Made by a program: the position numbers and the translations under genes
The notes under the pieces: generated by a model
What the model saw: only the letters and a program-made list of their open reading frames with translations
What the model was told of the DNA's origin: nothing
Databases searched by the model: none
Source: Streptomyces sp. SM10
GTDB taxonomy: Bacteria > Actinomycetota > Actinomycetes > Streptomycetales > Streptomycetaceae
DNA length: 64,000 nucleotides
Direction: 5' to 3'
NCBI RefSeq assembly: GCF_002910915.1
Contig: NZ_NEUF01000030.1
Span: forward strand, 31,547-95,546
Shown here: positions 25,392 to 51,113 of the stretch, in pieces
Numbering within the stretch: the first letter of the stretch is position 1
Layout: the number at the start of each line of letters is the position of its first letter

Positions 25392-25430
25392 CGCGCCCCG
25401 GCGGGAAACCGGATTTCGCCTCGGGGCGCG
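25392..25430 (+). terminator. Hairpin between metallophosphoesterase and tRNA-Pro
   Basis: Arms CGCGCCCCG and CGGGGCGCG (25392-25400, 25422-25430) form a perfect 9-bp stem. An inner GGCG/CGCC pairing can extend it. Confidence 0.55.
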
Positions 25431-25474
25431 GGTGGGCTAAGGTTATCGATGTCGCCGGGACAACCGGTGGACAT

Positions 25475-25548
25475 CGGGGTGTAGCGCAGCTTGGCAGCGC
25501 GCTTCGTTCGGGACGAAGAGGTCGTGGGTTCAAATCCCGCCACCCCGA
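25475..25548 (+). tRNA. tRNA-Pro (anticodon CGG)
   Basis: Acceptor CGGGGTG pairs with CACCCCG, discriminator A, CCA not encoded. The anticodon arm CTTCG-TTCGGGA-CGAAG gives CGG. The T-arm GTGGG-TTCAAAT-CCCGC is standard. It reads CCG proline codons, frequent in this genome. Its 3' half, from the anticodon loop on, forms the left junction repeat of the island. Confidence 0.97.
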
Positions 25549-25580
25549 CAGCTGAAACACCAGGTCAGGGGCCTGATCCA
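25507..25580 (+). repeat. attL: 3' part of tRNA-Pro plus trailer
   Basis: This 74-bp segment recurs in direct orientation at 37527-37600 with three mismatches (25521, 25560, 25568). The longest identical run is 38 bp, 25522-25559, covering the T-arm, the acceptor end and the first bases of the trailer. This is the usual site for tyrosine-recombinase elements. Confidence 0.88.
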
Positions 25581-25602
25581 CTTAGTGGATCAGGCCCCTG
25601 AC
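25564..25602 (+). terminator. Terminator of tRNA-Pro, left copy
   Basis: A perfect 18-bp stem (25564-25581 with 25585-25602) with loop TTA follows the tRNA by 15 bp. A related but shorter hairpin follows the right repeat; the left one is probably supplied by the element. Confidence 0.85.
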
Positions 25603-25621
25603 TCGTTCCCGGAGATCGTTT

Positions 25622-25661
25622 GGGAGAAATCTGGGAGAAGATCTTGGTCGGCTTCTCCCAG
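25622..25661 (+). repeat. Left subterminal GGGAGAA repeat and inverted repeat
   Basis: The 24-bp GGGAGAAATCTGGGAGAAGA(TCTT) segment at 25622-25645 matches 37404-37427 at 21 of 24 positions in the same orientation. The inner CTGGGAGAAG (25631-25640) also pairs with CTTCTCCCAG (25652-25661). It could be a set of recombinase arm-type sites. Confidence 0.5.
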
Positions 25662-25758
25662 CGGCCGATCGCCCGACAAGGGAGGCACGCCTCCCACGCG
25701 TCCGCTCGCACCTGCGCGGTCGCGAACTTCAGTCGACCACTCGACCTGAGGACAGCCT

Positions 25759-26295
25759 GTGGACTACGGCTTCAGCAGCACCGACGACGCCGACAACAGC
25801 GCCTCTGAACGAGCGGGTCGCCCGTGCTCGGTCTGCGGCACGGTGATGGAGTATTGGCGCCCGCGCAGCCAGAAGTACTGCTCCGATCCTTGCCGTGCCT
25901 CGGCTGCCAAGAGGCAGCGGGTCGAACGCCCGAAGGACGCGCCGAAGGTGCGGCGCCCGATGCAGACGCTCACACCGGGGACGCCTCCGGTGCCCGACCC
26001 CGCCAGGAGCCGCAAGGTTCCTGGCGATCCTTACTGGAACCCCATCCTCACGGCTGCGGAACGTGCCACGGGCGGCGAACCTTGCCGGATCTGCGGAGTG
26101 CCCGTGCCAAAGAGCGCGCACTGGGAGCACCGCGATCGGCACGTCTGCTCGGGTCGGTGCAACACCACTCTCAAGCGGCGCACGAGGACGCGGATCGCGA
26201 AGGGTGAGATCGACTTGGCCGCCATACCTGATCGAGGTGCGGTCCCCGGTTTCCGATGCCGGGATCATCCGGAGTATTTGCGCCTCAACCCCTAG
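25759..26295 (+). CDS. Double zinc-finger protein of the island
   Basis: A 178-residue basic soluble protein with two similar Cys clusters. CSVCG...KYCSDPC lies in the first 50 residues and CRICG...HVCSGRC near residue 110. Each has a C-x2-C then C-x3-C arrangement that fits a treble-clef-like zinc ribbon. A proline-rich linker separates them, and WEHRDRH supplies extra His residues. I do not recognise the family; nucleic acid binding is inferred. GTG 25759 follows GAGGAC by a few bases. It lies next to the left island end, where many elements carry excision or regulatory genes. Confidence 0.65.
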   Translation: MDYGFSSTDDADNSASERAGRPCSVCGTVMEYWRPRSQKYCSDPCRASAAKRQRVERPKDAPKVRRPMQTLTPGTPPVPDPARSRKVPGDPYWNPILTAAERATGGEPCRICGVPVPKSAHWEHRDRHVCSGRCNTTLKRRTRTRIAKGEIDLAAIPDRGAVPGFRCRDHPEYLRLNP

Positions 26296-26366
26296 CTCCG
26301 GACGAAACCCACGTATGGCTTAGATCCAAGTCGGCTGGGTGTTTCGTGGTCGAGGAGACATCGTGG

Positions 26367-27161
26367 TCAAGCGGCTGGCTGCAGGACGGCTTGGTCGGCG
26401 GCGAGCGCCCGGAGGCGGGCAGCCATGGCGTCCGGCCCGAGCGCGGCGAGGGCCCACAGGGCACTGATGCGGCGGCCGGAGGCCCAGATATTGCAGGCCG
26501 GGGGCCGGAACGGTGTCACGTCGATGCCCTGGACAGCGAAGGAGGTCTGGTCGAGATATCCCATGCCGCCGGTCCCGCACAGATACGAGCGGGCTCCGGT
26601 TGCGGCTGCGAGGTCCGCGAGCCGCTGGGACCGGCCCGGCCGGGAGGGCAGTCGGCTGCTGGTGAGGATCTTGCCCTTCCAGCCGAGCAGGTCCAGCAGT
26701 ACGCGGGTGGAGGTCTCGGCGGCGGCAGCGGTCCGGCCGGTGGTGAAGGCATCCAGCACCGGGTCCAGAGCCTGGGCGAGGGCGGGCCAGTGCGGGCTGG
26801 CGCCATAGTGCTGCCGGAGCATCCCCGCGGTCCGGCGGCGGGTCCGCTCCGGCTCGGCGATCACCGCGTCCCTGATGAGGGTCGAACGTCCCTGGGGCAG
26901 GTGAGTGGGGAGAGTGAGCCACTGGTGGCGGGCCGGGTCGCCGAGGTCGGCGAGGCGGGCTCGATGCTGGTAGTCGCGGCGGGTGAACTGCACGTCGTCC
27001 AGGACGATCCAGTAGTCCGCCGCGAACAGCTTGGCCAGCGTGGTCAGCCGGGGCAGGAAATTCGGCTGGTGAACGGCACACAGCCCGCCCGGCTGGGGCA
27101 GATCACGAGGTGATGAGGCGGCTGGTGAAGCCGTCGTGGATGAGAAACTCGTACGCGGCAT
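26367..27161 (-). CDS. WbqC-like family protein
   Basis: A 264-residue protein with the WbqC signature near its N-terminus: HQPNFLPRLTTLAKL, WIVLDDVQFTRRDYQHRARL, then WLTLP. WbqC proteins occur in O-antigen and sugar biosynthesis clusters; no reaction is proven. The C-terminal part, GTGGMGYLDQTSFAVQGIDVTPF, also fits the family. ATG 27161 has GGAGG six bases upstream and overlaps the ydcF-like gene by 59 bp; no closer start is in frame, which suggests tight coupling or a later non-ATG start. It is the last gene of a three-gene operon. Confidence 0.75.
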   Translation of the reverse strand: MPRTSFSSTTASPAASSPRDLPQPGGLCAVHQPNFLPRLTTLAKLFAADYWIVLDDVQFTRRDYQHRARLADLGDPARHQWLTLPTHLPQGRSTLIRDAVIAEPERTRRRTAGMLRQHYGASPHWPALAQALDPVLDAFTTGRTAAAAETSTRVLLDLLGWKGKILTSSRLPSRPGRSQRLADLAAATGARSYLCGTGGMGYLDQTSFAVQGIDVTPFRPPACNIWASGRRISALWALAALGPDAMAARLRALAADQAVLQPAA

Positions 27162-27771
27162 GCACGTCCTCCGGGACCTCCTGCTCGATGGCGAAACCGA
27201 GCTTCGGATACTCGATCACCCGCTGGAGGTCACCGACGAGCATGTCCAGGACGAGCTTCTCGTCGCCGATGGACTTCACGTAATCGTCGAACTCCAGCGG
27301 CTCCGACGCGCAGAGGATCTCAACGTCGGGCCAAAGCTTGCGGGCGGTCGCGAACGACCGCCGTTCCATGTAGGGCTTGGAGACCAGCAGCACCGTCGTC
27401 GGGGTGATGCCGGCGCCGGCGAGGACCTCCCGGGAGAAGGTGATGTTCTGTCCCGTGTTACCGGCGTTCGGTTCCAGCAGGATCGCCTCGGCGGGGACGC
27501 CCAGGTCGATGGCGTGCTCGCGGAAGTGGACGGCCTCGCCGCGCGGGAAGACCTGGGCGGTGGTCGGGCTGTTGCCGCCGGTGAACACCAGGGTCGGAAA
27601 GAGCCCGGCCTGATACAGCTCGGCGGAGTGGGCAGCGACACCGAGGTCGTGGCTGCCCAGCCCGATCGCCACATTGACGGGCCGCAGCTCGTGCTGCATC
27701 TGGTGGTAGTCCCAGATCAGCTTGGCCTGGCGCCACTGGTCCTCGGTGATGCTCTGCTGGCTGTCGCTCAC
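27103..27771 (-). CDS. YdcF/ElyC-type DUF218 protein
   Basis: The 222-residue protein has the DUF218 core: VAIGLGSHDLGVAAHSAELYQ, LVFTGGNSP, AILLEPNAGNTGQNITFS and VLLVSKPYMERRSFATA. The E-P-x-A-x-N-T-x-x-N motif and S-K-x-x-x-x-R are the conserved sites of the family, which in E. coli includes SAM-binding YdcF. It lacks a membrane anchor, so it is cytoplasmic. GTG 27771 is preferred because AGGGAG lies 6 nt upstream; GTG 27789 would overlap the regulator stop as GTGA. It shares an operon with the XRE regulator and WbqC. Confidence 0.75.
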   Translation of the reverse strand: MSDSQQSITEDQWRQAKLIWDYHQMQHELRPVNVAIGLGSHDLGVAAHSAELYQAGLFPTLVFTGGNSPTTAQVFPRGEAVHFREHAIDLGVPAEAILLEPNAGNTGQNITFSREVLAGAGITPTTVLLVSKPYMERRSFATARKLWPDVEILCASEPLEFDDYVKSIGDEKLVLDMLVGDLQRVIEYPKLGFAIEQEVPEDVHAAYEFLIHDGFTSRLITS

Positions 27772-27785
27772 GCGCTTCTCCCTGG

Positions 27786-28886
27786 TCACCGTTGCCGGGG
27801 GCCGGTCGGCCCCTCGCTCATGGCCTTGATGCCCTCGATACTGCGCAGTTGGTGCACGAGTCCGTACTGCGCGGCCACCTTGGCGGCCTGGCCGAGGACG
27901 AGGTGTCCATCATCCCGGGTCGCCGTGTCGGAGAGCAGGATGTGGCCAAGAGCGGTGTCCAGTCGCACGCGTTGCATCGGTGATTCGGTGGTCCCGCAGT
28001 GGCGGGCGATGTCGATGAAATGTAGGGCCTGGGGGAGGTCGCCGGCGCCGCGGGCGGCGAGGGCAAGCTTTTGGTGGGCCACCGACCAGTCGTCGGGTTC
28101 CTGGAGGTCTTCGAAGTCGCGGGTCGCGGCCTGCATGACGCGGCTCGCATATTCGTGGTTGCCGTCCTTGCTAAGCGCGGTACCCACCCACAGCCTCGCG
28201 CGGGCCCGGTCACGCCGCGATAGCCGGTCGTCGACGGCGAGGGTTTCGTAGTTGCGGGCGGCGCTCTCCAGCTCCCCGGACATCTCGGTGACCACCGCGA
28301 GGGACAGGTCGAGCTGGGCGACCCGGCGGGGGATGTCGAGCTGGGTGAAGACGGATCGGGCGCCTGCGTAGGAGTACTGGGCCGACAGCGGGCCCAGGAC
28401 GACGCCCTGGTCGCGCTTGAGGTCGCCGAGCAAGGCGGTCGAACGGGCGAACAGATACAGGCCCTTCTCGTCCAGCTCGGGGGCCTTGAACCGGCCCAGC
28501 CACCGCGCAAGGAGGCTGTCGGCGAAGGTGAAGTTCTGCCGGGACAGGGCGACCACGACCCGGTCGAGGTCGTCGGCCCACGACTCGTACTCCCAGGCCC
28601 GGGGCCCGGAGGGGGCAATACGTCGCCGAGCGGAGGTCAAGGGGCTGGTCATCTCGGACAAGAGCGTCTCGAAGCGCAGGTGGACGGCGGCGTCCGCGCG
28701 GCTGAGCGCGGTGTCGAGGATGGCCTGGGTGTCGGGTCTGGGTTCGGTGCCGGCGAGTTTGGACTCCCACTTGGAGACCGTCGCGACGGCCAGGCCGAGC
28801 TGCTGGGCGAAGGCACGCACGCTCAGTCGCAGGGCGAGACGCAGGGCCTTGGCCTCCAGGCCGGTCCACTGGTGCACGGTCGCCAC
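27786..28886 (-). CDS. XRE-type regulator with TPR-like C-terminus
   Basis: The 366-residue protein starts with a helix-turn-helix (about residues 10-55: ALRLSVRAFAQQLGLAVATVSKWE). A long all-helical region follows whose repeated helices, such as RAWEYESWADDLDRVVVALS and ARARLWVGTALSKDG, resemble TPR ligand-sensing parts of Streptomyces regulators. GTG 28886, six bases after AAGGGAG, is favoured over ATG 28910. Three 11-bp iterons lie 50-82 bp upstream and may be its operator. It leads the operon with YdcF and WbqC and is divergent from the resolvase-like gene. Confidence 0.75.
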   Translation of the reverse strand: MATVHQWTGLEAKALRLALRLSVRAFAQQLGLAVATVSKWESKLAGTEPRPDTQAILDTALSRADAAVHLRFETLLSEMTSPLTSARRRIAPSGPRAWEYESWADDLDRVVVALSRQNFTFADSLLARWLGRFKAPELDEKGLYLFARSTALLGDLKRDQGVVLGPLSAQYSYAGARSVFTQLDIPRRVAQLDLSLAVVTEMSGELESAARNYETLAVDDRLSRRDRARARLWVGTALSKDGNHEYASRVMQAATRDFEDLQEPDDWSVAHQKLALAARGAGDLPQALHFIDIARHCGTTESPMQRVRLDTALGHILLSDTATRDDGHLVLGQAAKVAAQYGLVHQLRSIEGIKAMSEGPTGPRQR

Positions 28887-28935
28887 ACGTCGCTCCCTTC
28901 CGCCAGCCATCGAAGCACGCTCCGTGCAGTCGGCG

Positions 28936-28968
28936 GGACGGAAGTGGAACGGAAGTAGAACGGGCGGT
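28936..28968 (-). promoter_or_regulatory. Three 11-bp iterons in the XRE / resolvase-like divergent region
   Basis: GGACGGAAGTG, GAACGGAAGTA and GAACGGGCGGT follow each other with an exact 11-bp period, about one helical turn. This lies between two divergent start codons (28886 and 29042) and suits cooperative binding by the XRE regulator. Confidence 0.5.
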
Positions 28969-29041
28969 GATTGGCCCGGGGTTGGCGGGCAGCCACGCTG
29001 AAGGGGTCATCAGTTGTCGAGCCCTCTGGACGGTCCTCAGC

Positions 29042-29470
29042 ATGGAACCCCTCACGGAGCATCGCCAGATCAACGGTCCGGTCGTCTACGGCCTCCTGCG
29101 GCTGGTGAAGGTGCCCGCGGCCCGGCATGCGGCGTTGGCCGCGTCGCTCGCCGAGTACTGCCGCAGCCACGAGCTGCAACTTTCCGGCGTCTTCACCGAC
29201 CGCGACGTGAGTTCTGGGCCCGACTCGGCGGCGTTCACCGGGCTGCTGGACCTGCTGGCCCTGCCGGACGTCTATGGCGTGATCGCCCCGGCCATGTCGC
29301 ACCTGGGGCCGAAGGCCATAGCCGCCCAGCGCAGACACCGGATCGAGACGGCCGGCTCCCGATTGCTGCTGGTCCGCCGCCCCCGCACCGCACACCTGCC
29401 GGTCTCCCACCACGGTCCCGTTCGCCGACGCAGCGCAGGGAATGCCCGCGTTCTGGACGCCGAGTCATGA
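29042..29470 (+). CDS. Resolvase-like protein without visible catalytic serine
   Basis: A 142-residue protein. VVYGLLRLVKVPAARHAALAASL, LSGVFTDRDVSS and FTGLLDLLALPDVYGVIAP run like the serine-recombinase catalytic fold (strand, helix, F-x-D, then VVxP). However, the nucleophilic serine in the first strand (Y-x-R-x-S) is absent and there is no DNA-binding or long C-terminal domain. It is therefore probably not a recombinase but a co-opted regulator. The N-terminal sequence has no good ribosome site. It overlaps the following GHKL ATPase region, so the two are probably coupled. Confidence 0.55.
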   Translation: MEPLTEHRQINGPVVYGLLRLVKVPAARHAALAASLAEYCRSHELQLSGVFTDRDVSSGPDSAAFTGLLDLLALPDVYGVIAPAMSHLGPKAIAAQRRHRIETAGSRLLLVRRPRTAHLPVSHHGPVRRRSAGNARVLDAES

Positions 29471-29478
29471 GGACGGCA

Positions 29479-29880
29479 ATGACCGAGACGACCCGGCGGT
29501 TCTTCACGGCCCGGCCCGAATCGATCGGCCAGGCCAGAAAGTTCGTTACGGATGCCCTGGCCGGATGGGGCCTGCACGACCGCGCCGAGGACATCCGGCT
29601 CTGCGTCTCCGAGCTCGCCACGAACGCCCTGGTTCACGGCACCGTCGCCGACCACGGCTTCCTGGTCAAGCTGGTCGCCGACGAGGGAGAAGTACGGCTG
29701 GAAGTGCACGACAGCCGCCGCCGGCTCCCCGCGGTCCGCCAGGCCGCCGACACGGACCTGTCCGGACGCGGCCTGACGCTGGTGAGCGTGCTCGCCGACG
29801 ACTGGGGCGTTCTGGACCGCACCCCGGTCGGGAAAGTCGTCTGGTCCTGTTTCAAAGCTGAGGGAGGGACGACGTCATGA
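29479..29880 (+). CDS. GHKL ATPase of the anti-sigma/RsbW type
   Basis: The 133-residue protein is a single HATPase_c domain of the short anti-sigma kind. The N box is CVSELATNALVHG, the G box region is DLSGRGLTLVSVLADDWGV, and it ends VVWSCFK. Such proteins in Streptomyces bind sigma or anti-anti-sigma factors and often accompany regulatory trios. ATG 29479 follows GAGGA by 5 bases; ATG 29467 (overlapping the preceding stop as ATGA) is an alternative. No cognate sigma factor is in the island. It overlaps the next gene by ATGA. Confidence 0.8.
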   Translation: MTETTRRFFTARPESIGQARKFVTDALAGWGLHDRAEDIRLCVSELATNALVHGTVADHGFLVKLVADEGEVRLEVHDSRRRLPAVRQAADTDLSGRGLTLVSVLADDWGVLDRTPVGKVVWSCFKAEGGTTS

Positions 29881-30347
29881 CCGTCATCCTCACCCCATCC
29901 GGTCCGGAACTACGGCTGTTGGTCTCGCTCGCTTCCTGGACCTGGCCGGGCACCAGTCCGGACGGCCGCGAGGTCGCGCACATCCTGATCACCCACAACC
30001 CGGCCTTCACAGGCCCCGACGCTGCCGAGGCGGTCGAGGCCCGGATGCGTCGGCTCTCCGACAGCCTCGGCGGCCTGGCCAGCTCCCGGGCGCCCGTTCG
30101 CGAGCTCGCCCGATGCCTGCAGGTCGTCGGCGGGCAAGTGCTGATGAGCTTTCCCGGCACCGCCCGCAAGCTGCGGCTGCCCACCCGCCGGCCCTGGACC
30201 GAACTGGTCGCCAGCAACAGCGGGGCCGTCCTCCTGCTCGGACTGGACCCACTGCCGCAGACCGCTGACGCCGCCCGCCTCGACACCTACTTGGACGACG
30301 CGCTCGCCGCCGACCGGCTGCTGTTCGGACTCGCCCGCATCCGCTGA
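29877..30347 (+). CDS. Unknown island protein, 156 residues
   Basis: A soluble protein starting MTVILTPSGPELRLLVSLASW. It has no membrane segment, signal or recognised motif. A conserved-looking VREL-to-FPGTARKL stretch and a leucine-rich C-terminus suggest a helical fold. It is coupled to the GHKL ATPase by an ATGA overlap, so the two likely act together. I do not recognise the family. Confidence 0.6.
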   Translation: MTVILTPSGPELRLLVSLASWTWPGTSPDGREVAHILITHNPAFTGPDAAEAVEARMRRLSDSLGGLASSRAPVRELARCLQVVGGQVLMSFPGTARKLRLPTRRPWTELVASNSGAVLLLGLDPLPQTADAARLDTYLDDALAADRLLFGLARIR

Positions 30348-30708
30348 CCACCTGGACTTCCCGCACGGCCCCCGGACGCGACAGATGAGAGTGAACTGTC
30401 ATGGGAGCCGAACGACGGGACTGTGGACGCGGCCCTCGCTTCAACCGATCTGCGAGCGCTGGCGGGGATCACTGTTCGGGTCGACGTCCTTTTGCTTGCC
30501 GAGAGTGATCTGAATCATCGCGCCTCCCTGCGGGGTTGCCTCGTGGCCGTAATGACTGAGGCAGCCCGGTCAGGGCTACCACTAGTCCCCGTTATAACGG
30601 GGTATCAAAGCCTGTCTCCCAGAGCGCAGTCGGCATCCTGGATGCGGAACGGACGGGCCCCGGAATCTGCGAGCATCTGGGGGTGTCATACCGGACGAGG
30701 GAGATCAG
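30348..30708. other. Intergenic region before the first ABC operon
   Basis: This is 361 bp with no supportable gene. It contains a 16-bp perfect palindrome at 30587-30602, about 105 bp before the ABC start, and otherwise nothing I can name. Confidence 0.5.
30587..30602 (+). promoter_or_regulatory. Perfect palindrome, probable operator
   Basis: CCCCGTTATAACGGGG is a perfect 16-bp dyad with an AT-rich centre, in an otherwise GC-rich spacer. It stands 106 bp before the TTG start of the ABC ATPase. It looks like a dimeric repressor site; the protein that reads it is unknown. Confidence 0.5.
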
Positions 30709-31599
30709 TTGTTACGTCTTCAATCAGTGAGCAAGCGCTATGGCCGTGGCGATTGGATCCTGAGAGACGTGGACGTGGAGGCCCCGGCCGGCGAGATCGT
30801 GGCATTCGCCGGCGGGAACGGATCAGGGAAGTCGACACTGCTGCGGATCGCGGTGGGCTTGTCCCGGCCGACCCGCGGCACAGTGGCCGCCCGGCCGCCC
30901 GTCGTCGGGTACGTCCCGGACCGGTTCTCACCCAACGAACGCATGTCGGCCGCGGCGTACCTGACACACATGGGCCGCGTCCGCGGGCTGACCACCTCGG
31001 CCGCCTCGGCGCGGGCCGGCCAGCTGCTGGACCGCCTCGCCCTGGTGGGCGGCAAGCACGCCCCCCTACGGAGCCTGTCAAAGGGCAACGCGCAGAAGGT
31101 CGCGCTGGCCCAGGCCCTCCTGGTGGAACCCGGACTTCTCGTCCTGGACGAGCCGTGGTCCGGGCTGGACGCCGACGCCCACGGCGTGCTCGCCGAGATC
31201 ATGACCGGGGTCGCGGCCTCCGGGAGCACCGTCGTGTTCACCGACCACCGCGAGTCGGTCACCCGGGCCCGCGCCACCCGGACCTACACGGTCAGCAGGG
31301 GCCGCGTGTGCCTGGAGGGACCCGAGCCGCAGGCCACCGAGCAGCGGCCGGTGTCCGACGTCGTCCTGACCGCGGGCCGCGACGGCCGCGTACCGCAGGA
31401 CCTCGCCTGGGAGCAACTGGACGGCGTCACCGCGGTGCGCCGGGACGTCTCTGGCGTCAGGCTGCGCGTGGGACGCGAGTCCACCGACGCCCTGCTGTTC
31501 ACCGCGCTCCAGCACGGCTGGTCCGTCGAGACCGTCACCGGGACCACCACGGACCACCACCGGACGCCGAACTCCGCGACGAACGGAGACATGCGGTGA
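30709..31599 (+). CDS. ABC transporter ATP-binding protein (island, first system)
   Basis: The 296-residue ATPase has Walker A GGNGSGKST (Lys41), a signature LSKGNAQKVALAQALL and Walker B LLVLDEPWSGLD, followed by a degraded-looking FTDHRES switch. The variant signature (LSKGN) and C-terminal extension suggest an exporter of the CcmA/BcrA type. Start is TTG 30709 after GAGGGAG. GTG of the next gene overlaps its stop as GTGA, so the two form one transporter. Confidence 0.88.
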   Translation: MLRLQSVSKRYGRGDWILRDVDVEAPAGEIVAFAGGNGSGKSTLLRIAVGLSRPTRGTVAARPPVVGYVPDRFSPNERMSAAAYLTHMGRVRGLTTSAASARAGQLLDRLALVGGKHAPLRSLSKGNAQKVALAQALLVEPGLLVLDEPWSGLDADAHGVLAEIMTGVAASGSTVVFTDHRESVTRARATRTYTVSRGRVCLEGPEPQATEQRPVSDVVLTAGRDGRVPQDLAWEQLDGVTAVRRDVSGVRLRVGRESTDALLFTALQHGWSVETVTGTTTDHHRTPNSATNGDMR

Positions 31600-32255
31600 T
31601 CGCACTCATGCGCTACACCTTCGCCACCGTGCTGCACACGCAGCGCTACCTCGCCCCGCTGCTCTTGTTCATGGGCCTGATGAGCGTGCTGACCGTCAAC
31701 GGCAGCGGCCCGCTGCCTCCGGCCTACGCCTCCTCCGCCGGCGCCCTGTTCATCTGCTCGACCTGGCTGACGATCGCGCTGATGAGCCTGGACGACCCGC
31801 CGCAGCGGGCGATCGTCGTCGTCACCGCGGGCGGCCGGTCGCTCACGGTGCTGCTCGCGGCGATCGGCACGGCCCTGCTGAGCTGTCTCGTGCTGATGAC
31901 CTTCGGGCTGTTCTTCCCGCTGTGGATGGGCGACTACGTGGTGACCACGACCGATCTCCTGCTGGGCCTGGAGGCGCAGCTCACCTGCGCCCTCGTCGGC
32001 ATCGCCATCGGCGTGCTGTGTTCACGGCTGGTCTTCAAACGGCAGGGCTACGCGCTGATCGCTGCCCTCGCGCTGGTGATGGGAGCTCTCTTCGCCAAGG
32101 GCATGCCTCCGGTCAACCGCCTGTTCACCCTGATGGCCACCACCCCCGACGCGGCGGAACTGCTCGCCCCCACCGGCGTCATGCTGGCGATCTCCGCGAT
32201 GATCCTTGCCGTGTTCACCGCCGCCACGCAGTTCGTCGCCGGGCGCAGGGAATAG
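31596..32255 (+). CDS. ABC transporter membrane protein (first system)
   Basis: A 219-residue hydrophobic protein with about six helices; it has no recognised permease signature but is translationally coupled to the ATPase. The loop GDYVVTTTDLLLGLEAQ sits between helices three and four. It is the likely permease. Substrate unknown; a peptide or antibiotic exporter is only a guess from the gene layout. Confidence 0.7.
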   Translation: MIALMRYTFATVLHTQRYLAPLLLFMGLMSVLTVNGSGPLPPAYASSAGALFICSTWLTIALMSLDDPPQRAIVVVTAGGRSLTVLLAAIGTALLSCLVLMTFGLFFPLWMGDYVVTTTDLLLGLEAQLTCALVGIAIGVLCSRLVFKRQGYALIAALALVMGALFAKGMPPVNRLFTLMATTPDAAELLAPTGVMLAISAMILAVFTAATQFVAGRRE

Positions 32256-32614
32256 ACCGCCGGCCCTCATCCGCCCCTGGGCCTGCCGGGCGCTTCCTGA
32301 TCCACTCAGCCCGACGCGTACGACCCGAAACTCGACGTCGACTTCACCCCGCTGCGCGAGCAGGACCTCACTGCTGCTGGACTCAGCCAGCTTGCTTGAC
32401 CGACCGCGTCCTCCTGGCGTGAGCACGGGCCCGTACTGTCGAAGCGGGCGCCCAAATCACCTCTCATGGCTTCGGGCTCTCATTGGTGCTGTGTCAGGCG
32501 CGGGTGGAAGCGGTAGCGCCAGGTGGCAGCCGTGGGCAGAAGCCCCGGCAAGCGCGAAACGGACATCGGTTCGCGTGCTGCCTTCCGAGACGGCGCGGAG
32601 GTTCAGTCGTCAGG
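32256..32614. other. Intergenic region with a possible coding remnant
   Basis: This is 359 bp between the permease stop and the LspA-like stop. A 31-codon frame ending at 32399 reads DPKLDVDFTPLREQDL in good codon style but has no start; it may be the tail of a lost gene. No terminator hairpin stands out. Confidence 0.35.
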
Positions 32615-33157
32615 CTATGTCGAGTCAGACGTTGCCGTAGACACGTCAGGGGAGGGCTCTTCGCCTGGTGTCTTGGCGAGCGGCACACCACGTAGGCAGA
32701 GCAGCGCCAGCGCAGCGCATCCGCAGACGAGTGCAATGTCGGCGACGTTCCCTACGAAAGGACCGTAGTCGATGAAGTCCACGACATGCCCGCGGGCGAA
32801 GCCGGGCGCGCGGAAGAGCCTGTCGCCCAAGTGGGACATCGTGCCGCCGAGTAGCGTGCCCAGCACAAGCGCCCACCGACGAGAGGTCAGTCGGCGTGCG
32901 GCATAGAGGATGCCGACCACTGCGCCCGCCGTCGCCAGGGCGAACACCCATGTCGCGCCGGAGCCGATGGAGAACGCGGCGCCGGCGTTGTACAACAGCC
33001 GGAAATGGATCAGAGTCGGGATCGCGGTGACGCTCTCGCCGGTGGACAGCGCGGAGACCGCCCAGAACTTGGTGAGTTGGTCCACGAGCAGGACCACTGC
33101 CGCCAGCGTGAGCATCACGCTGTACAACCGTCCCGATCCCCGATTCAGCCGCGTCAT
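32615..33157 (-). CDS. LspA-like signal peptidase II paralogue
   Basis: A 180-residue membrane protein with four helices. The LspA motifs DQLTK, NAGAAF and VVDFID are present, and both catalytic aspartates, Asp112 (GDR) and Asp140 (NVAD), are kept. The usual GN before L/I-x-D-R is replaced by S-H, so activity may be altered. LspA cleaves prolipoprotein signal peptides. A house-keeping copy should exist elsewhere; island copies are sometimes tied to antibiotic (globomycin-like) resistance, which is inference. ATG 33157 follows AAGGAGG. Confidence 0.82.
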   Translation of the reverse strand: MTRLNRGSGRLYSVMLTLAAVVLLVDQLTKFWAVSALSTGESVTAIPTLIHFRLLYNAGAAFSIGSGATWVFALATAGAVVGILYAARRLTSRRWALVLGTLLGGTMSHLGDRLFRAPGFARGHVVDFIDYGPFVGNVADIALVCGCAALALLCLRGVPLAKTPGEEPSPDVSTATSDST

Positions 33158-33226
33158 TCGCTGCCTCCTTCTCATGTGGTTGTTACCTGCATTCGTGGTG
33201 GTCAGCCGTCCGCCCGACGGCGACTC

Positions 33227-33934
33227 TCAGCCACCGATCGGCGGGGCTGCCGCCGTCACCAGGCCGCTCTCGTACGCGGCAATCACCAGCTGGGCGCGAT
33301 CGCGCGCGGCGAGCTTGCCGAGCAGGTGGTTGACGTGGGTCTTGACGGTGGCAACGCCGAGAAAGAGCCGTCCGGCGATTTCGGTGTTGGACAGGCCGCG
33401 GGCGATGAGGGTGAGGACCTCGCGTTCGCGCGCGGTGACGCCGTCCAGGGTGGGACTCAGCGGTCGCGAGGGCTCCGGGCGACGGGCGAACTCCGCGATC
33501 AGGCGCCGCGTCACCGCCGGCGCCAAAAGAGCATCGCCGGCGGCGAGGAGCCGGATCGCCGCGAGCAGCTCGCCTGGTGGCGTGTCCTTGAGCAGGAAGC
33601 CACTGGCGCCGGCTCGTAGGGCGGCGTAGACGTACTCGTCCAGGTCGAACATCGTCAGGATCAGCACCTTGACGTTCGCGGTCTCGGGGGAGCCGCAGAT
33701 CAGCCGGGTCGCCTCGATGCCGTCCATCTCGGGCATGCGCACGTCCATCAGGACCACATCCGGGGGATCCCGCCGGGCAAGCCGCACGGCCTCGGCCCCG
33801 GTGGCAGCCTCCGACGTGGTCGTCAGGCCGGGCTCGGTGTCGACGAGCACCCGCAGGCTGCCGCGCAACAGCGCCTGGTCGTCGGCGATCAGCACGCGTA
33901 TCGCGTTGTCGGCTAGATCGCCGGGCCGGGTCAA
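33227..33934 (-). CDS. NarL/LuxR-type response regulator
   Basis: The 235-residue regulator has a receiver domain with the phosphoacceptor Asp in VVLMDVRMPEMDG and the LLKD lysine, and a LuxR helix-turn-helix (LTAREREVL, LSNTEIAGRLFLGVATVKTHV). Start is TTG 33934, overlapping the kinase stop as TTGA, with GAGGAG five bases upstream; the longer upstream open frame belongs to the kinase gene. It should control the flanking ABC system. Confidence 0.9.
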   Translation of the reverse strand: MTRPGDLADNAIRVLIADDQALLRGSLRVLVDTEPGLTTTSEAATGAEAVRLARRDPPDVVLMDVRMPEMDGIEATRLICGSPETANVKVLILTMFDLDEYVYAALRAGASGFLLKDTPPGELLAAIRLLAAGDALLAPAVTRRLIAEFARRPEPSRPLSPTLDGVTAREREVLTLIARGLSNTEIAGRLFLGVATVKTHVNHLLGKLAARDRAQLVIAAYESGLVTAAAPPIGG

Positions 33935-35130
33935 GCGTTCTCCTCGTACGGCAGTATCGCCCGGACCGCGAAGCCGCCCGTCGGGCACGGTCCGGCGGTA
34001 AGGGTCCCGCCATGGACGGCGACGCGTTCGCGCATGCCCACGATGCCGTGTCCGCCCGGTGTCATCGCGAGGTTCGCCCGGCCGGCGCCGTCGTCGACGA
34101 TATCGAGCCGGACCTCGCGGCCGTTCGCGTCGACCACCACTCGGCAACGGGTCGCGGGGGCGGTGTGCTTGGCGACGTTGGTCAGTGCCTCCTGCACGAT
34201 CCGATAGACGGCCAGCGCGATGGCGTCTGGAAGGTTGTCGACACCGCGCATGGCCAACCGCGCGCCGGCCTGCCGGACCAGCTCGGCAAGAGCATCGGTT
34301 CCGGGCGCCGGGCCAAGGGCCGCGACCTGCCGTTCACCTTCGGACGCGCGAAGCACGCCGAGCATCTGGCGCATGTCGTTCAGCGCGGTGCGGCTCGTGC
34401 GCTCGATGACCTGCAGTGCGTCGTACGCCTCCTGCGGCCGGACGTGGAGCACGTGGTTGGCGACGCCGGCCTTGACCGCGATCAGGCCCATGCTGTGGGT
34501 GACGACGTCGTGCAACTCGCGGGCGATTCGCAGGCGTTCCTCGGTGACGGCGCGCTGCGCGAGCTGCTCGGCCGCCCGCACGGCGAAGGCACGTCTTTGC
34601 CGCGCGGCGCGTCCCAGCTCCCAGGCGCCGAGCAGCGCGACGAAGCCGAGCAGCAGCAGACCCGGGCCGTTGTGCCACCGGTCCGTTCCGCCGGCCCGCG
34701 CGGCCGCGACCATGCCGGCGACCGACAACACGGCGATCGCCAGGCCGGGCAGCCATCGCCGCCACCAACGGCGCGGCCTCGCCATGACGGCGACGGTGTA
34801 GAGGGCGAACGCCCCCGACAGGAATGGGTCCCACGCCTGGTCCCGCGCGACCGCCACGGCCGTGACCGCCAGCACGACCACGAACACGGGCACCGGCCAG
34901 ATCCACCGGACGGCGACAGGCACCGTGGCCGCGGCGACGAGCACGAGCCGCTCCCACGGCACCGGTGTCGAGGACGGCTGTGCGGCCGACGAGTCCCCCG
35001 CCGGCCCGGTCAACAACAGCGCGGCCGCATAGCCGAGCACGAGCACGCAGTCCATGGTTGTGCGTTGGCGCCGGCTCAGCCGCCGAGCCAGGAGGGGAGG
35101 GTCGTCGTCCACAGCCGTACCTGCTTGCAC
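33931..35130 (-). CDS. Sensor histidine kinase (HisKA_3 type)
   Basis: About 399 residues, membrane-bound. Five or six hydrophobic helices (residues about 30-170) form the sensor; then the dimerisation motif RIARELHDVVTHSMG carries the phospho-His and an HATPase_c ends with GGHGIVGMRERVAVHGG. It lacks a large extracellular loop, so it may sense within the membrane as LiaS/BceS-type kinases do. GTG 35130 is a weakly supported start; GTG 35112 is possible. It is divergent from the second ABC operon and coupled to its response regulator. Confidence 0.82.
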   Translation of the reverse strand: MQAGTAVDDDPPLLARRLSRRQRTTMDCVLVLGYAAALLLTGPAGDSSAAQPSSTPVPWERLVLVAAATVPVAVRWIWPVPVFVVVLAVTAVAVARDQAWDPFLSGAFALYTVAVMARPRRWWRRWLPGLAIAVLSVAGMVAAARAGGTDRWHNGPGLLLLGFVALLGAWELGRAARQRRAFAVRAAEQLAQRAVTEERLRIARELHDVVTHSMGLIAVKAGVANHVLHVRPQEAYDALQVIERTSRTALNDMRQMLGVLRASEGERQVAALGPAPGTDALAELVRQAGARLAMRGVDNLPDAIALAVYRIVQEALTNVAKHTAPATRCRVVVDANGREVRLDIVDDGAGRANLAMTPGGHGIVGMRERVAVHGGTLTAGPCPTGGFAVRAILPYEENA

Positions 35131-35308
35131 CGCTCGACCATACCGAGGGGATACACCGCGGCACCTCCATCCTGCGGCCGACACCACCGCTCCACCCACA
35201 GTGGGGTGCCGCCGGCAGCCGGCGGCCGTACTCCACCCAGGGGTGGACGGAGGGCGTCCACCCCGAGCCGGACGCGGCCGCACCCTGTTGTGCCCGACCA
35301 TCACCTCC

Positions 35309-36226
35309 ATGATCGACGTCACCGACCTGACCAAGCGCTACGGGAAAGCCACCGTCGTGGAGGGGCTGACCTTTCGAGTAGAGCCCGGCCGGGTAACCGG
35401 ATTCCTGGGCCCCAACGGCGCCGGGAAGTCCACCACGATGCGCATGATGCTGGGCCTGGACCGCCCGACAGGCGGCGAGGTACGCATCCACGGCGCCCAC
35501 TACCGGCAGCTGCGCGACCCGCTGCGCACGGTGGGCGCGCTACTCGACGCCAAGGCCGTGCACCCCGGCCGCACCGCGCTCGACCACCTGCGCTGTCTGG
35601 CCCGCAGCAACCGGATCCCGTCACGCCGCGTGCGTGAGGTGATCGAGCTGACCGGCCTGGAGAGCGCCGCGCACCGTCGGGCCGGGAGGCTTTCGCTGGG
35701 CATGAGTCAGCGACTGGGGGTCGCAGCAGCACTGCTCGGCGACCCCGCCGTCCTGATCCTGGACGAGCCGATCAACGGGCTCGACCCGGAGGGCATCCTG
35801 TTGATCCGCGGACTCATGCGAGAGCTGGCGCTCCTGGGGCGCACCGTCCTCGTGTCCAGCCACCTGATGAGCGAGGCGGCGCTCACCGTGGACCACCTCG
35901 TGGTCATCGGCCGCGGCCGGCTACTCGCCGACACCGACATGACCGCGTTCATCGACCGGCACACGAACGCCGGGGTGCGGGTACGCACACCCGAACCGCA
36001 ACGGTTGCGCGCAGTGCTGGTCGGTGCAGGGATCACGGCCACCGACCACGCGGACGGCAGCCTCGAAGTGGCCACCACGGCAGAGCGGTTCGGCGAACTG
36101 GTCGCAGCACACGCGGTGACGGTGCACGAGGTGACGCGCAAGGGCGTGTCCCTGGAAGAGGCATTCATACGGCTGACGGCCGACGCGGTCGAATACCGGG
36201 CTGAGCCGGCGGGAGAACACCGATGA
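35309..36226 (+). CDS. ABC transporter ATP-binding protein (second system)
   Basis: A 305-residue BcrA/CcmA-type ATPase. Walker A GPNGAGKST (Lys40), signature LSLGMSQRLG, Walker B LILDEPINGLDP and switch SSHLMSEAA are complete. The C-terminal extension (about 215-300) is as in drug or lantibiotic exporters. ATG 35309 follows the intergenic region shared with the kinase; the next gene overlaps by ATGA. Likely regulated by the adjacent two-component system. Confidence 0.92.
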   Translation: MIDVTDLTKRYGKATVVEGLTFRVEPGRVTGFLGPNGAGKSTTMRMMLGLDRPTGGEVRIHGAHYRQLRDPLRTVGALLDAKAVHPGRTALDHLRCLARSNRIPSRRVREVIELTGLESAAHRRAGRLSLGMSQRLGVAAALLGDPAVLILDEPINGLDPEGILLIRGLMRELALLGRTVLVSSHLMSEAALTVDHLVVIGRGRLLADTDMTAFIDRHTNAGVRVRTPEPQRLRAVLVGAGITATDHADGSLEVATTAERFGELVAAHAVTVHEVTRKGVSLEEAFIRLTADAVEYRAEPAGEHR

Positions 36227-36996
36227 CCGGAAATTCGCCCCGCGCGGTACTGGCCGCCGAATGGATCAAGGTGTGGACCGTTCGGTCGACCCGTCTCGCA
36301 CTGCTGCTGACCTTCGTGATCAGCACCGGCATCGGCACACTCGTCGCCTTCAACTGGCGTGGCGACATCGAGCACGTCGTCAACTTCAGCCCATTGGCAG
36401 CCGGCTTGTACAGCGTGACCATCGGTCAACTCGCCCTCGTCGCGTTCGGCGTCCTACTCGTCGGCTCCGAGTATTCGTCCGGGTCGATGCGGGCATCGCT
36501 GACCGCCGTGCCCCAACGCGGGCTGCTCTACGGCGGCAAACTACTCGCCGGCACGCTAGCCGCCCTCGCCGGCTCGACCGTCACCGTCATCGTCACCTTC
36601 GCCGGAGCACAGGCAATCCTGGGCCCCTACGGCACCACACTCACGTCGGACGGGATTCTGACGGCACTCGCCGGCGCCATCACCTACCTGACTCTGATCT
36701 GCGCCCTGTCCATGGGAGTCACGGCCATCGTGCGCAGTTCGGTTGTCGCGTTGAGTCTCCTGCTGCCGCTGCTGTTCCTCGGTTCGCAGGGACTCGGCAA
36801 CGTCCCCACCCTCAAACCCGTCCTGCAGTACCTGCCCGACCAGGCCGGCCTGCAACTGATGCGCATCGCCCGACCACCCGACGACGACCGCTTCGGCCCC
36901 GACTACACCTCCGGCACGGCGCTCGCCATCCTGCTCGCTTGGACCGCCGCCGCTGTGCTCGGCGGCTACGTAGTTTTGCGCCACCGCGACGCCTGA
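36223..36996 (+). CDS. ABC-2 type permease (second system)
   Basis: A 257-residue membrane protein with about six helices. EYSSGSMRASLTAVPQR between helices two and three is the typical ABC-2 cytoplasmic motif (E-x-x-x-G-T/S). It pairs with the ATPase upstream through the ATGA overlap. Export of a toxic compound, giving self-protection, is inferred from the two-component system next to it. Confidence 0.88.
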   Translation: MTGNSPRAVLAAEWIKVWTVRSTRLALLLTFVISTGIGTLVAFNWRGDIEHVVNFSPLAAGLYSVTIGQLALVAFGVLLVGSEYSSGSMRASLTAVPQRGLLYGGKLLAGTLAALAGSTVTVIVTFAGAQAILGPYGTTLTSDGILTALAGAITYLTLICALSMGVTAIVRSSVVALSLLLPLLFLGSQGLGNVPTLKPVLQYLPDQAGLQLMRIARPPDDDRFGPDYTSGTALAILLAWTAAAVLGGYVVLRHRDA

Positions 36997-37010
36997 CGCC
37001 CGGCGGACCC

Positions 37011-37232
37011 GTGAGTGGTCGTTGGTTGTGGGGTGGTGTGGTGTGGTGTGGCGGTGAATCGCTCCGGCACGACCGGCGGCGGCTCGCGGACGCCGTGGAC
37101 ACGACCCTGAAAGTCCACGGTGGTCGGGTCACGGTCGAGGCGACGCCGCTCGCCGACCGTCCGTCGACCACCCGAGTCGTCCGCATCGACGTCGATCTGG
37201 GGACGACGCGGCCGGCCCGCCGGCCTGGGTGA
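37011..37232 (+). pseudogene. Possible C-terminal remnant of an unknown gene
   Basis: The frame contains RRRLADAVDTTLKVHGGRVTV and then STTRVVRIDVDLG, in codon style typical of real genes. The first 20 codons are a TGTGG simple repeat that looks non-coding, and there is no ribosome site. It is most likely the tail of a truncated gene; identity unknown. Confidence 0.35.
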
Positions 37233-37403
37233 GCCTTGGCGATCAGAAGCCCTCGACACCCTGTTCGACAAATGCGTGATCAGGTACACGGGAGACCCCC
37301 TTGTCTCCCATGGTGGCAGAGAGACCTGCCCGGCAAACTTGCTTCCGCAATGCCGCTCGCCGCTCAGGCTCAGAGGCGAACCCTCAGCCCTGGACCGGCC
37401 ACT

Positions 37404-37427
37404 GGGAGAATTCTGAGAGATGATCTT
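37404..37427 (+). repeat. Right subterminal GGGAGAA repeat
   Basis: It matches 25622-25645 at 21 of 24 positions in direct orientation, about 100 bp inside attR. Its partner lies at a similar distance inside attL. See the left copy. Confidence 0.5.
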
Positions 37428-37526
37428 CGCCCGGATGCCGACCAAGACCCTTCGGCACCACCTCAGCCCAGTCTCCTGAACTGCACGTTTATGAGATCTG
37501 CAGGTACCGATCTTGCTCGAACCTCA

Positions 37527-37600
37527 TTCGGGACGAAGAGCTCGTGGGTTCAAATCCCGCCACCCCGACAGCTGAAACAGCAGGTCAAGGGCCTGATCCA
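37527..37600 (+). repeat. attR: tRNA-Pro 3' fragment
   Basis: A direct copy of 25507-25580 with three mismatches, starting in the anticodon loop. It is a tRNA fragment, not a functional gene, because the D arm and 5' acceptor strand are missing. Confidence 0.88.
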
Positions 37601-50048: not shown

Positions 50049-51113
50049 TCAGGAGCGAGGAAATTCTCCGGCCACCGACTCGGCGATCTGGGCCACGTTG
50101 AGGGCCGCACCCTTCCGGAGGTTGTCGCCGCAGACGAACATGTCGACGGCGTGCGGATCGTCCATCGACTGCCTCACCCGGCCCACCCAGGTCGGATCGG
50201 TGCCCACGACGTCGGACGGGGTGGGGAAGTCACCGGCGCCCGGACTGTCGAAGAGCACCACCCCGGGCGCGGTCGCGAGGACCTCGTGGGCCCGGTCCAC
50301 GGCGACCTCGTTCTCGAAGCGCGCGTGCACGGACATGGAGTGCGTCGCCACGACGGGGACGTACACACAGGTCGCCGTCACCTTCAGGCCCGGCAGTCCG
50401 AGGACCTTCCGGCACTCCGCGCGGATCGCCATTTCCTCGGAGGACCATCCGCCCCCGGCATCGGTCCCGGCCCACGGCACCACGTTCAGGGCGACCGGGG
50501 CGGCGAAGGGGCTCTTCTCCCCGTCGCCCAGGGCCCGCCGGACGTCCCCGGGGCGGGTACCGAGCTCCGTCCCCGCCACCAGGGCCAGCTGCTCCCGGAG
50601 CGCGGCGACACCGTCGCGGCCCGCACCGCTCACGGCCTGGTAGGACGAGACGATCAGCTCCCGCAGGCCGAACTCGGCGTGCAGCGCACCGACCGCGACG
50701 ATGAGCGAGAGCGTCGAGCAGTTCGGCGACGCGACGATGCCGCGGGGCCTCAGCCGCGCGGCATGGGGGTTGATCTCAGGGACGACCAGGGGCACGTCGT
50801 CGTCCGTCCGGAAGGCGGCCGAGCCGTCCACGACCACGGCGCCCCGGGCGGCGGCCACCGGCGCCCACTGCGCGGACACCTCGTCCGGCACCAGGAACAG
50901 GGCGACGTCCACCCCGTCGAACACGTCCTCGGCGATCGCGAGGACCTCGGTCTCCTCGCCGCGGACGACCAGCTTGCTGCCGGCCGCACGCGGCGAGGCG
51001 ACCAGTCTGACCTCGCCCCAGACGTCCGCGTGCTGCGAAAGGATCTGGAGCATGACGCCGCCGATCACCCCGGTCGCGCCGACGACCGCGAGTGAAGGGC
51101 GGCGTCCGGTCAT
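50049..51113 (-). CDS. asd: Aspartate-semialdehyde dehydrogenase
   Basis: Second enzyme of the aspartate pathway (354 residues), reducing aspartyl phosphate to the semialdehyde for lysine, threonine and methionine. The NADP fold is [13 protein letters not shown], the catalytic thiol is Cys132 in SPNCSTL, and [11 protein letters not shown] with [11 protein letters not shown] form the rest of the site. Its start overlaps the lysC stop by ATGA, giving a typical lysC-asd operon. Confidence 0.95.

Follow-up and report, generated by a model that had tools for sequence, protein, structure and literature searches.

A tRNA-Pro(CGG) island of Streptomyces sp. SM10, probably a mobile element stranded by loss of its integrase and mobilisation genes

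Cis-mobilisable elements (CIMEs) are defined as elements that have lost their integration and transfer genes and have kept attL and attR, the left and right attachment (att) sites (PMC5704250; this and the other published systems are described here as in excerpts of the papers cited). Here we analyse a 12-kb island at a tRNA-Pro(CGG) gene of Streptomyces sp. SM10, in a stretch of 64,000 nucleotides (contig NZ_NEUF01000030.1, positions 31,547 to 95,546; assembly GCF_002910915.1) that we call the window. Judging from its sequence, the island fits the CIME definition and was most likely made by deletion; its mobility is predicted.

CIMEs of Streptomyces are already known. XSAM1 of S. ambofaciens ATCC 23877, a 42-kb CIME next to pSAM2 (PMC4891641), belongs like the island to the cis-mobilisable class at the site of an integrative element; it adjoins a live actinomycete integrative and conjugative element (AICE), whereas the window island stands alone. 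XSAM1 has also been called a putative prophage (PMC11195616). TR1, an S. scabiei CIME dependent on the integrative and conjugative element (ICE) TR2 (PMC8369830), is likewise att-bounded cargo. It differs from the island in its site (aviX1, not a tRNA gene), in its dependence on an ICE present next to it, and in that its excision and transfer were shown experimentally. Stacked AICEs and defective AICEs at tRNA-Arg in a Streptomyces population (PMC9513070) are also decayed elements at a tRNA hotspot, but they fall into AICE families defined by traB and use another tRNA. The nearest counterpart probably belongs to the integrative and mobilisable elements (IMEs), which have a relaxase and no mating channel (PMC5704250). 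It is an element of S. anulatus JCM 4721 (our genome G115) with the same att sites, arms and cargo cassette; the window copy lacks its integrase, MobC and predicted relaxase and carries different right-hand cargo. The island joins these with an unusually clear record of how a CIME probably came about, seen at base resolution, and with a poorly labelled integrase family behind it: the same att sites, arms and cassette occur with and without the integrase block.

The island and its attachment sites

The island is bounded by two copies of the 3' end of tRNA-Pro(CGG), with a predicted arm site inside each end:

25475..25549, plus strand: intact tRNA-Pro(CGG) gene, the integration target (ARAGORN; Rfam RF00005, 64.1 bits)
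25504..25580, plus strand: attL repeat with the 38-bp identical core at 25522-25559 (repeat search and letter comparison)
25564..25602, no strand: attL trailer hairpin, element-borne (inverted repeat; 69/70 bases identical to G115 attL)
25620..25645, plus strand: left arm repeat TTGGGAGAAATCTGGGAGAAGATCTT, predicted arm-type sites of the integrase; an inverted CTCCCAG lies at 25655
37386..37523, plus strand: right arm of the element, with the repeat CTGGGAGAATTCTGAGAGATGATCTT at 37402-37427 (90% identical to the right end in G115, 80% in G035, 79% in G088)
37524..37600, plus strand: attR repeat with the 38-bp core at 37542-37579, followed by the host trailer hairpin (repeat search)

The two att copies agree at 95% over 77 bp at a spacing of 12,020 (repeat search). 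Their longest identical run is the 38-bp core, and the likeness runs on into both trailer hairpins. The first-pass annotation of this DNA had described a tRNA-Pro-derived direct repeat of 74 bp bounding 12 kb; we recovered it at 77 bp, with a perfect 38-bp core. The repeat search gave no third copy within the island. When the genome was searched with the attL stretch, the matches were the stretch itself, the attR copy, four weaker ones on other contigs and two reverse ones (hairpins). The island has a G+C content of 0.693 against 0.707 for the window outside it, a difference useless as an island marker.

Over the attL trailer the window and G115 are identical at 69 of 70 bases, whereas at attR each host has a trailer of its own. 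The attL trailer is thus the element's and the attR trailer the host's, in agreement with the earlier proposal that the element brought its own. The accompanying claim that the two trailers are distinct holds in part: their loops and outer parts differ, but the GGGCCTGATCC stem is common to both.

The genus was searched for the occupied or empty site in 150 genomes. In G072, left flank, tRNA and right flank are contiguous by alignment, which is the unoccupied site that had been sought in related Streptomyces, and the tRNA is present in it. About 0.9 kb (G052), 1.4 kb (G053) and 70 kb (G029) separate the tRNA from the right flank elsewhere. The whole 12 kb was searched for in 295 Streptomyces genomes, SM10 included, with one or two candidates per genome scored. 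Among the matches listed for the 294 other genomes, the best spans 4.2 kb, which does not bear out a 12-kb block present in all close relatives; the remaining matches are partial and lie each in different genomes (26240-30404, 30654-32246, 33234-37012 and 25760-26261). Since the 12 kb is not common to relatives as one block, we regard the island as accessory and mosaic.

A close relative with an integrase and mobilisation block

That no integrase, excisionase or transfer gene is visible in the island had been noted at first pass, and our scans bore this out. Integrase, relaxase and transfer families gave no Pfam match in the island open reading frames (ORFs) scanned, a set that leaves out some small ORFs. 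No match in the island was obtained by tblastn with the integrase, MobC and relaxase of G115 and a panel of other integrases, and no excision gene was recognised there. The hallmarks of AICEs of the pSAM2/SLP1 type, a TraB/FtsK-type translocase, Rep and an integrase, were none of them matched in the island, which is therefore not classed as an AICE; pSAM2 itself presumably uses a tRNA-Pro gene. No integrase-bearing neighbour element lies beside the island in the window; a comparable tandem exists in G088.

The closest element found, 26 kb in S. anulatus JCM 4721, occupies the same tRNA-Pro. Window positions 25405-26239 match it at 97% (859 bp) and positions 26240-30404 at 98% (4,166 bp), whereas the left host flanks agree at 88% (1,205 bp). 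That the element is closer to G115 than is the left host flank indicates horizontal transfer. At the boundary of the two matching segments, G115 holds a block of 8,672 bp (L100, 2939-11610) that has no counterpart in the window:

25759..26295, plus strand: 5' stump of a gene for an HNH nuclease, truncated at 26239 and continued by unrelated codons beyond the junction (the G115 homologue has 402 aa with HNH; a homologue in G247 covers the same 1.2 kb with 89% identity)
26239..26240, no strand: junction at which the 8,672-bp G115 block is missing (blunt break, zero shared bases)

Overlapping BLAST ends had suggested a 22-bp microhomology at this point, a candidate rejected on the letters, which give the blunt break.

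The missing block comprises most of the HNH gene (402 aa), a tyrosine integrase, an XRE regulator, DUF3631, DUF2637, MobC/NikA and a predicted relaxase. In the window only the 5' part of the HNH gene is left, and the match to G115 picks up again 26 bp beyond the stop codon of the relaxase gene. Counted from its first start, the G115 integrase (L100:3777-5576) has 599 aa; 48 of the 70 open frames of its relatives have 500-511 aa. The 566-aa protein encoded after MobC, which contains an HUH-like motif (HADDHIH), is taken for a relaxase. In the part of the 26-kb element's ORFs that was scanned, the integrase and MobC/NikA were matched and the relaxase was recognised by motif only.

Compared with the CIME definition, the island keeps attL and attR, and the integration and transfer genes of which none was found in it are present in G115 (the relaxase by motif). 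Its left half, 97-98% identical to the G115 element, points to an origin of the ICE/IME type. The suggestion made at first pass that the element is decayed thus gains support from a near-identical element that retains the integrase and mobilisation block.

We consider it very probable that the island is a mobile element stranded by deletion of its integrase/mobilisation block, with both att sites and the predicted arms kept. An integrase of the LacI-insert family described below would have inserted the ancestral element by recombining within the 38-bp core, and the host's tRNA 3' end and trailer would thereby have given way to those carried by the element. The element would have entered the window lineage horizontally. 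A later deletion, with one end within the HNH gene and the other 26 bp beyond the relaxase gene, would have taken the integration, regulation and mobilisation genes at once, and the cargo right of 30404 would have been swapped at some other time. Re-excision is predicted only upon arrival of a cognate integrase, either in cis (a stacked element, as in the G088 tandem) or in trans.

The integrase family, its arm sites and other tRNA-Pro(CGG) sites

As judged from the G115 copy, the missing integrase is a member of a large Streptomyces family that has a LacI helix-turn-helix in its catalytic domain and often goes by the name "LacI regulator" in public records. A scan of genome_contigs (84,980 species) gave 209 stretches encoding relatives, 80 of which were kept for counts. 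In 68 of the 80 loci a copy of the att site or tRNA end is present on the expected side, and in 58 the tRNA is whole; for five of the 12 loci without an att copy, the contig ends less than 10 kb from the integrase gene. Relaxase relatives accompany the integrase in 69/80 loci and MobC in 57/80. In 25 sequences chosen from these loci, R211, K248, H420, R423, H446 and Y455 are invariant (25/25), and we counted this as the catalytic set of tyrosine recombinases, which we take to be R, K, HxxR, H and Y. The LacI helix-turn-helix of the same 25 sequences lies at about 301-347, between K248 and H420. Profile matches to the PDB (42 distinct sequences) were mostly LacI-type regulators at about 298-353; others were to an N-terminal domain (66-156) or to C-terminal parts (408-471) of integrases. 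An AlphaFold2 structure (25 close sequences) had a mean pLDDT of 43.5 with only the LacI helix-turn-helix region confident, and was discarded as evidence.

The G115 integrase scores 20 bits against PF00589 (cut-off 27.1), with no PF00589 row at its site. A plasmid relative is likewise under the cut-off, and 25 of 120 listed relatives do carry PF00589 (precomputed). By a by-eye count, the names of these 120 are LacI regulator (82), recombinase or integrase (6, NCBI), integrase (11, JGI) and hypothetical (2), the other 19 being nameless. Surveys of Streptomyces mobile elements based on labels would likely miss many such integrases. A full-text search of open-licence literature found no description of a LacI-containing integrase family; for Frankia AICEs, a figure legend marks a LacI regulator (PMC3218068).

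The search for a cognate tyrosine recombinase elsewhere in the genome, advised at first pass, came back empty in the 195-contig draft. The genome has 22 PF00589 matches, none of them on C20, the contig that holds the window. Searching it with the G115 integrase gave eight partial matches, the best of which covers residues 100-355 at 29% identity; the others fall in the region of the LacI domain. One of the 22 PF00589 matches, an integrase on C108 (L127), shares 57% identity with the integrase that an AICE-like element of G088 carries at tRNA-Pro. It adjoins tRNA-Arg(ACG) and tRNA-Ser(GCT), and because of its position next to tRNA-Arg its target is probably that gene. On contig C150, three matches to tyrosine recombinases follow one another on the same strand in the space of 2.7 kb and are perhaps a recombinase-in-trio element.

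The 26-bp arm repeats at 25620-25645 and 37402-37427 differ by four mismatches, against a random minimum of ten (up to 2,000 window stretches). The repeat recurs, with three, three and five mismatches, in the G115, G035 and G088 elements, respectively, each time at the right end. Its motif TTGGGAG was found 50-260 bp past the core in 66 of the 66 loci with a LacI-type integrase and a usable site, survey sites left out. At the survey sites described below, it was present in 12/12 with a LacI-type integrase (partly the same genomes as the 66), in 0/7 with other integrases and in 9/45 without a detected integrase. The background was 0.3% of 5,000 random window stretches, and the window's own copy lies at 25620. 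GGGAGAA was tried as the arm motif and dropped, being present at just 27 of 75 sites (some genomes doubly counted); a de novo count gave TTGGGAG. The circular plasmid pSITFR-21c (L217, NZ_CP134608) carries phage-type recombination genes and an amidase. Its att core lies about 100 bp from a LacI-type integrase (58% identical) and is flanked by a repeat of its own, ACACCCAGTTGACACCCAGA (10441 and 10734). As this plasmid lacks TTGGGAG, the motif is valid for the close integrase family only. The TTGGGAG signature by a tRNA offers a way to seek such remnants without an integrase gene.

For the survey, 65 tRNA-Pro(CGG) sites were fetched, 60 of them selected for large contigs among the 150 genomes, plus five more; one was without the tRNA, leaving 64. 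At 12 of these a LacI-type integrase match lies within 20 kb, two of the matches being partial (326 and 53 aa); seven have a different integrase or part of one. Extra att copies without a full integrase by panel tblastn or PF00589 occur at six sites (G082, G015, G142, G034, G067 and G052), of which G082 retains a PF00589 fragment. Two of the nine arm-bearing sites without an integrase have one farther out; the other seven have none within about 58 kb by the panel, the only check applied to them (PF00589 was not). One of these seven, G105, has a second att copy 33 kb on. In G088, an element with an integrase and FtsK is followed by an att copy and then by a cassette whose arms and cargo are the same. 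The LacI-type query, the panel and PF00589 detected no integrase in this cassette. This tandem would be the layout needed for cis-mobilisation. Four att copies lie within 8 kb of tRNA-Pro in G142 (L245), with no integrase by panel or PF00589, and are perhaps a stack of three small remnants.

Such sites raise the question of whether the island is a helper-dependent satellite by design, an integrase-less form that is stable and transmissible, is moved in trans or in cis by elements with LacI-type integrases, and was acquired already without the block. It would explain why both arms and both att sites are retained, and it agrees with the recurrence of integrase-less att-bounded cassettes at tRNA-Pro (the 6/64 sites, and the G088 cassette behind a full element) and with the 7 of 21 arm-signature survey sites that lack a panel integrase. 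Yet only the window's own match crosses the junction among the matches listed (one or two candidates per genome), the broken HNH gene has the look of an accident's leftover, and the island has no recognised excision gene. We therefore think a satellite unlikely and favour stranding by deletion. A wider reading, which we hold to be somewhat less likely than not, is that tRNA-Pro(CGG) in Streptomyces is run by a so far undescribed family of LacI-insert integrases that recognise TTGGGAG arms, and that the island belongs to a genus-wide pool of re-mobilisable integrase-less cassettes. If this were true, integrase deletion would be a recurrent, reversible step in the spread of cargo.

Direction of the change and content of the island

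Only two states were directly compared at the junction, and the difference could in principle have arisen in reverse, from an ancestor without the block and a gain of integrase and mobilisation genes by insertion in the S. anulatus lineage. However, the junction cuts an HNH gene that is full length in G115 and, at 89% and over the same 1.2 kb, in G247. There it is followed by the integrase, XRE, DUF3631 and MobC genes in the G115 order; the order from HNH to MobC is also that of L150. In 25 of the 80 integrase loci the integrase, XRE and DUF3631 genes are grouped, which again speaks against a gain by insertion in the S. anulatus lineage. A relaxase relative lies immediately upstream of WbqC, the first gene of the cargo cassette, in at least 6 of 17 cassette loci outside the SM10 genome, G115 included (a lower bound, as only about 1.5 kb of flank was seen). 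Five of the 80 integrase loci carry WbqC, and all five, G115 among them, also have the relaxase. Loss in the window would be the simpler reading, and we hold a gain in G115 to be very improbable. A chance tRNA-like repeat or assembly artefact with no element behind it, for which nothing speaks beyond the draft state of the genome, can be dismissed in view of the 77 bp at 95%, the empty site, the conserved arms and the att-paired elements in other genomes.

Several points weigh against deletion from a G115-like element. The 195-contig draft could conceal an integrase, and the C108 integrase may conceivably act on the tRNA-Pro site. The host-flank comparison is limited to the left side, since the G115 sequence beyond attR does not match the window. 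The relaxase call is based on the motif read by eye and the place after MobC, with no Pfam match. Right of 30404 the cargo differs altogether, with 7 kb in the window and about 12.8 kb in G115, which implies at least one further exchange. The adjacency of relaxase and WbqC is not universal; on two plasmids the cassette is not next to a relaxase. Finally, the proposed direction draws on one very near and two further relatives.

The genes of the island beyond the HNH stump are as follows:

26367..27161, minus strand: WbqC-family protein, first gene of a six-gene cargo cassette (PF08889, 1.7e-32)
27103..27789, minus strand: YdcF/DUF218 protein (PF02698, 6.1e-17)
27786..28910, minus strand: helix-turn-helix (HTH) protein, 374 aa (weak HTH matches under Pfam cut-offs)
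28967..29470, plus strand: hypothetical protein, 167 aa (no Pfam match; kept in the cassette)
29467..29880, plus strand: ATP-binding protein, HATPase_c_2 (PF13581, 1.1e-16)
29877..30347, plus strand: hypothetical protein, 156 aa (cassette homology stops at 30404)
30709..31599, plus strand: ABC transporter ATPase (PF00005, 1.8e-22)
31596..32255, plus strand: 219-aa protein, possibly the permease that partners this ATPase, as the two genes overlap (unsupported by Pfam)
32615..33175, minus strand: second copy of signal peptidase II, LspA (PF01252, 9.9e-28; two in the SM10 genome)
33227..33988, minus strand: response regulator, NarL type (PF00072, PF00196)
33931..35334, minus strand: sensor histidine kinase (PF07730, 5.2e-18)
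35054..36226, plus strand: ABC transporter ATPase, true start probably downstream of the ORF start (PF00005, 1.7e-26)
36223..36996, plus strand: ABC-2 type permease (PF12679, 1.5e-12)

The six-gene cassette at 26240-30404 (WbqC, YdcF, HTH, 167-aa, ATP-binding and 156-aa proteins) is found many times over in Streptomyces and also on plasmids, where 9 of 72,556 records contain 80% of it or more. A full-text search of open-licence literature found no description of a WbqC-YdcF cassette. A defence system in the cargo was considered and rejected: among the 10 proteins run through PADLOC only the ABC ATPase matched, to the ATPase models of several systems, which is generic. The LspA gene, the genome's second, adjoins the two-component system and an ABC transporter; resistance to an LspA inhibitor might be its role. 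The window contains a second tRNA gene, tRNA-Arg(CCG), at 50082-50170.

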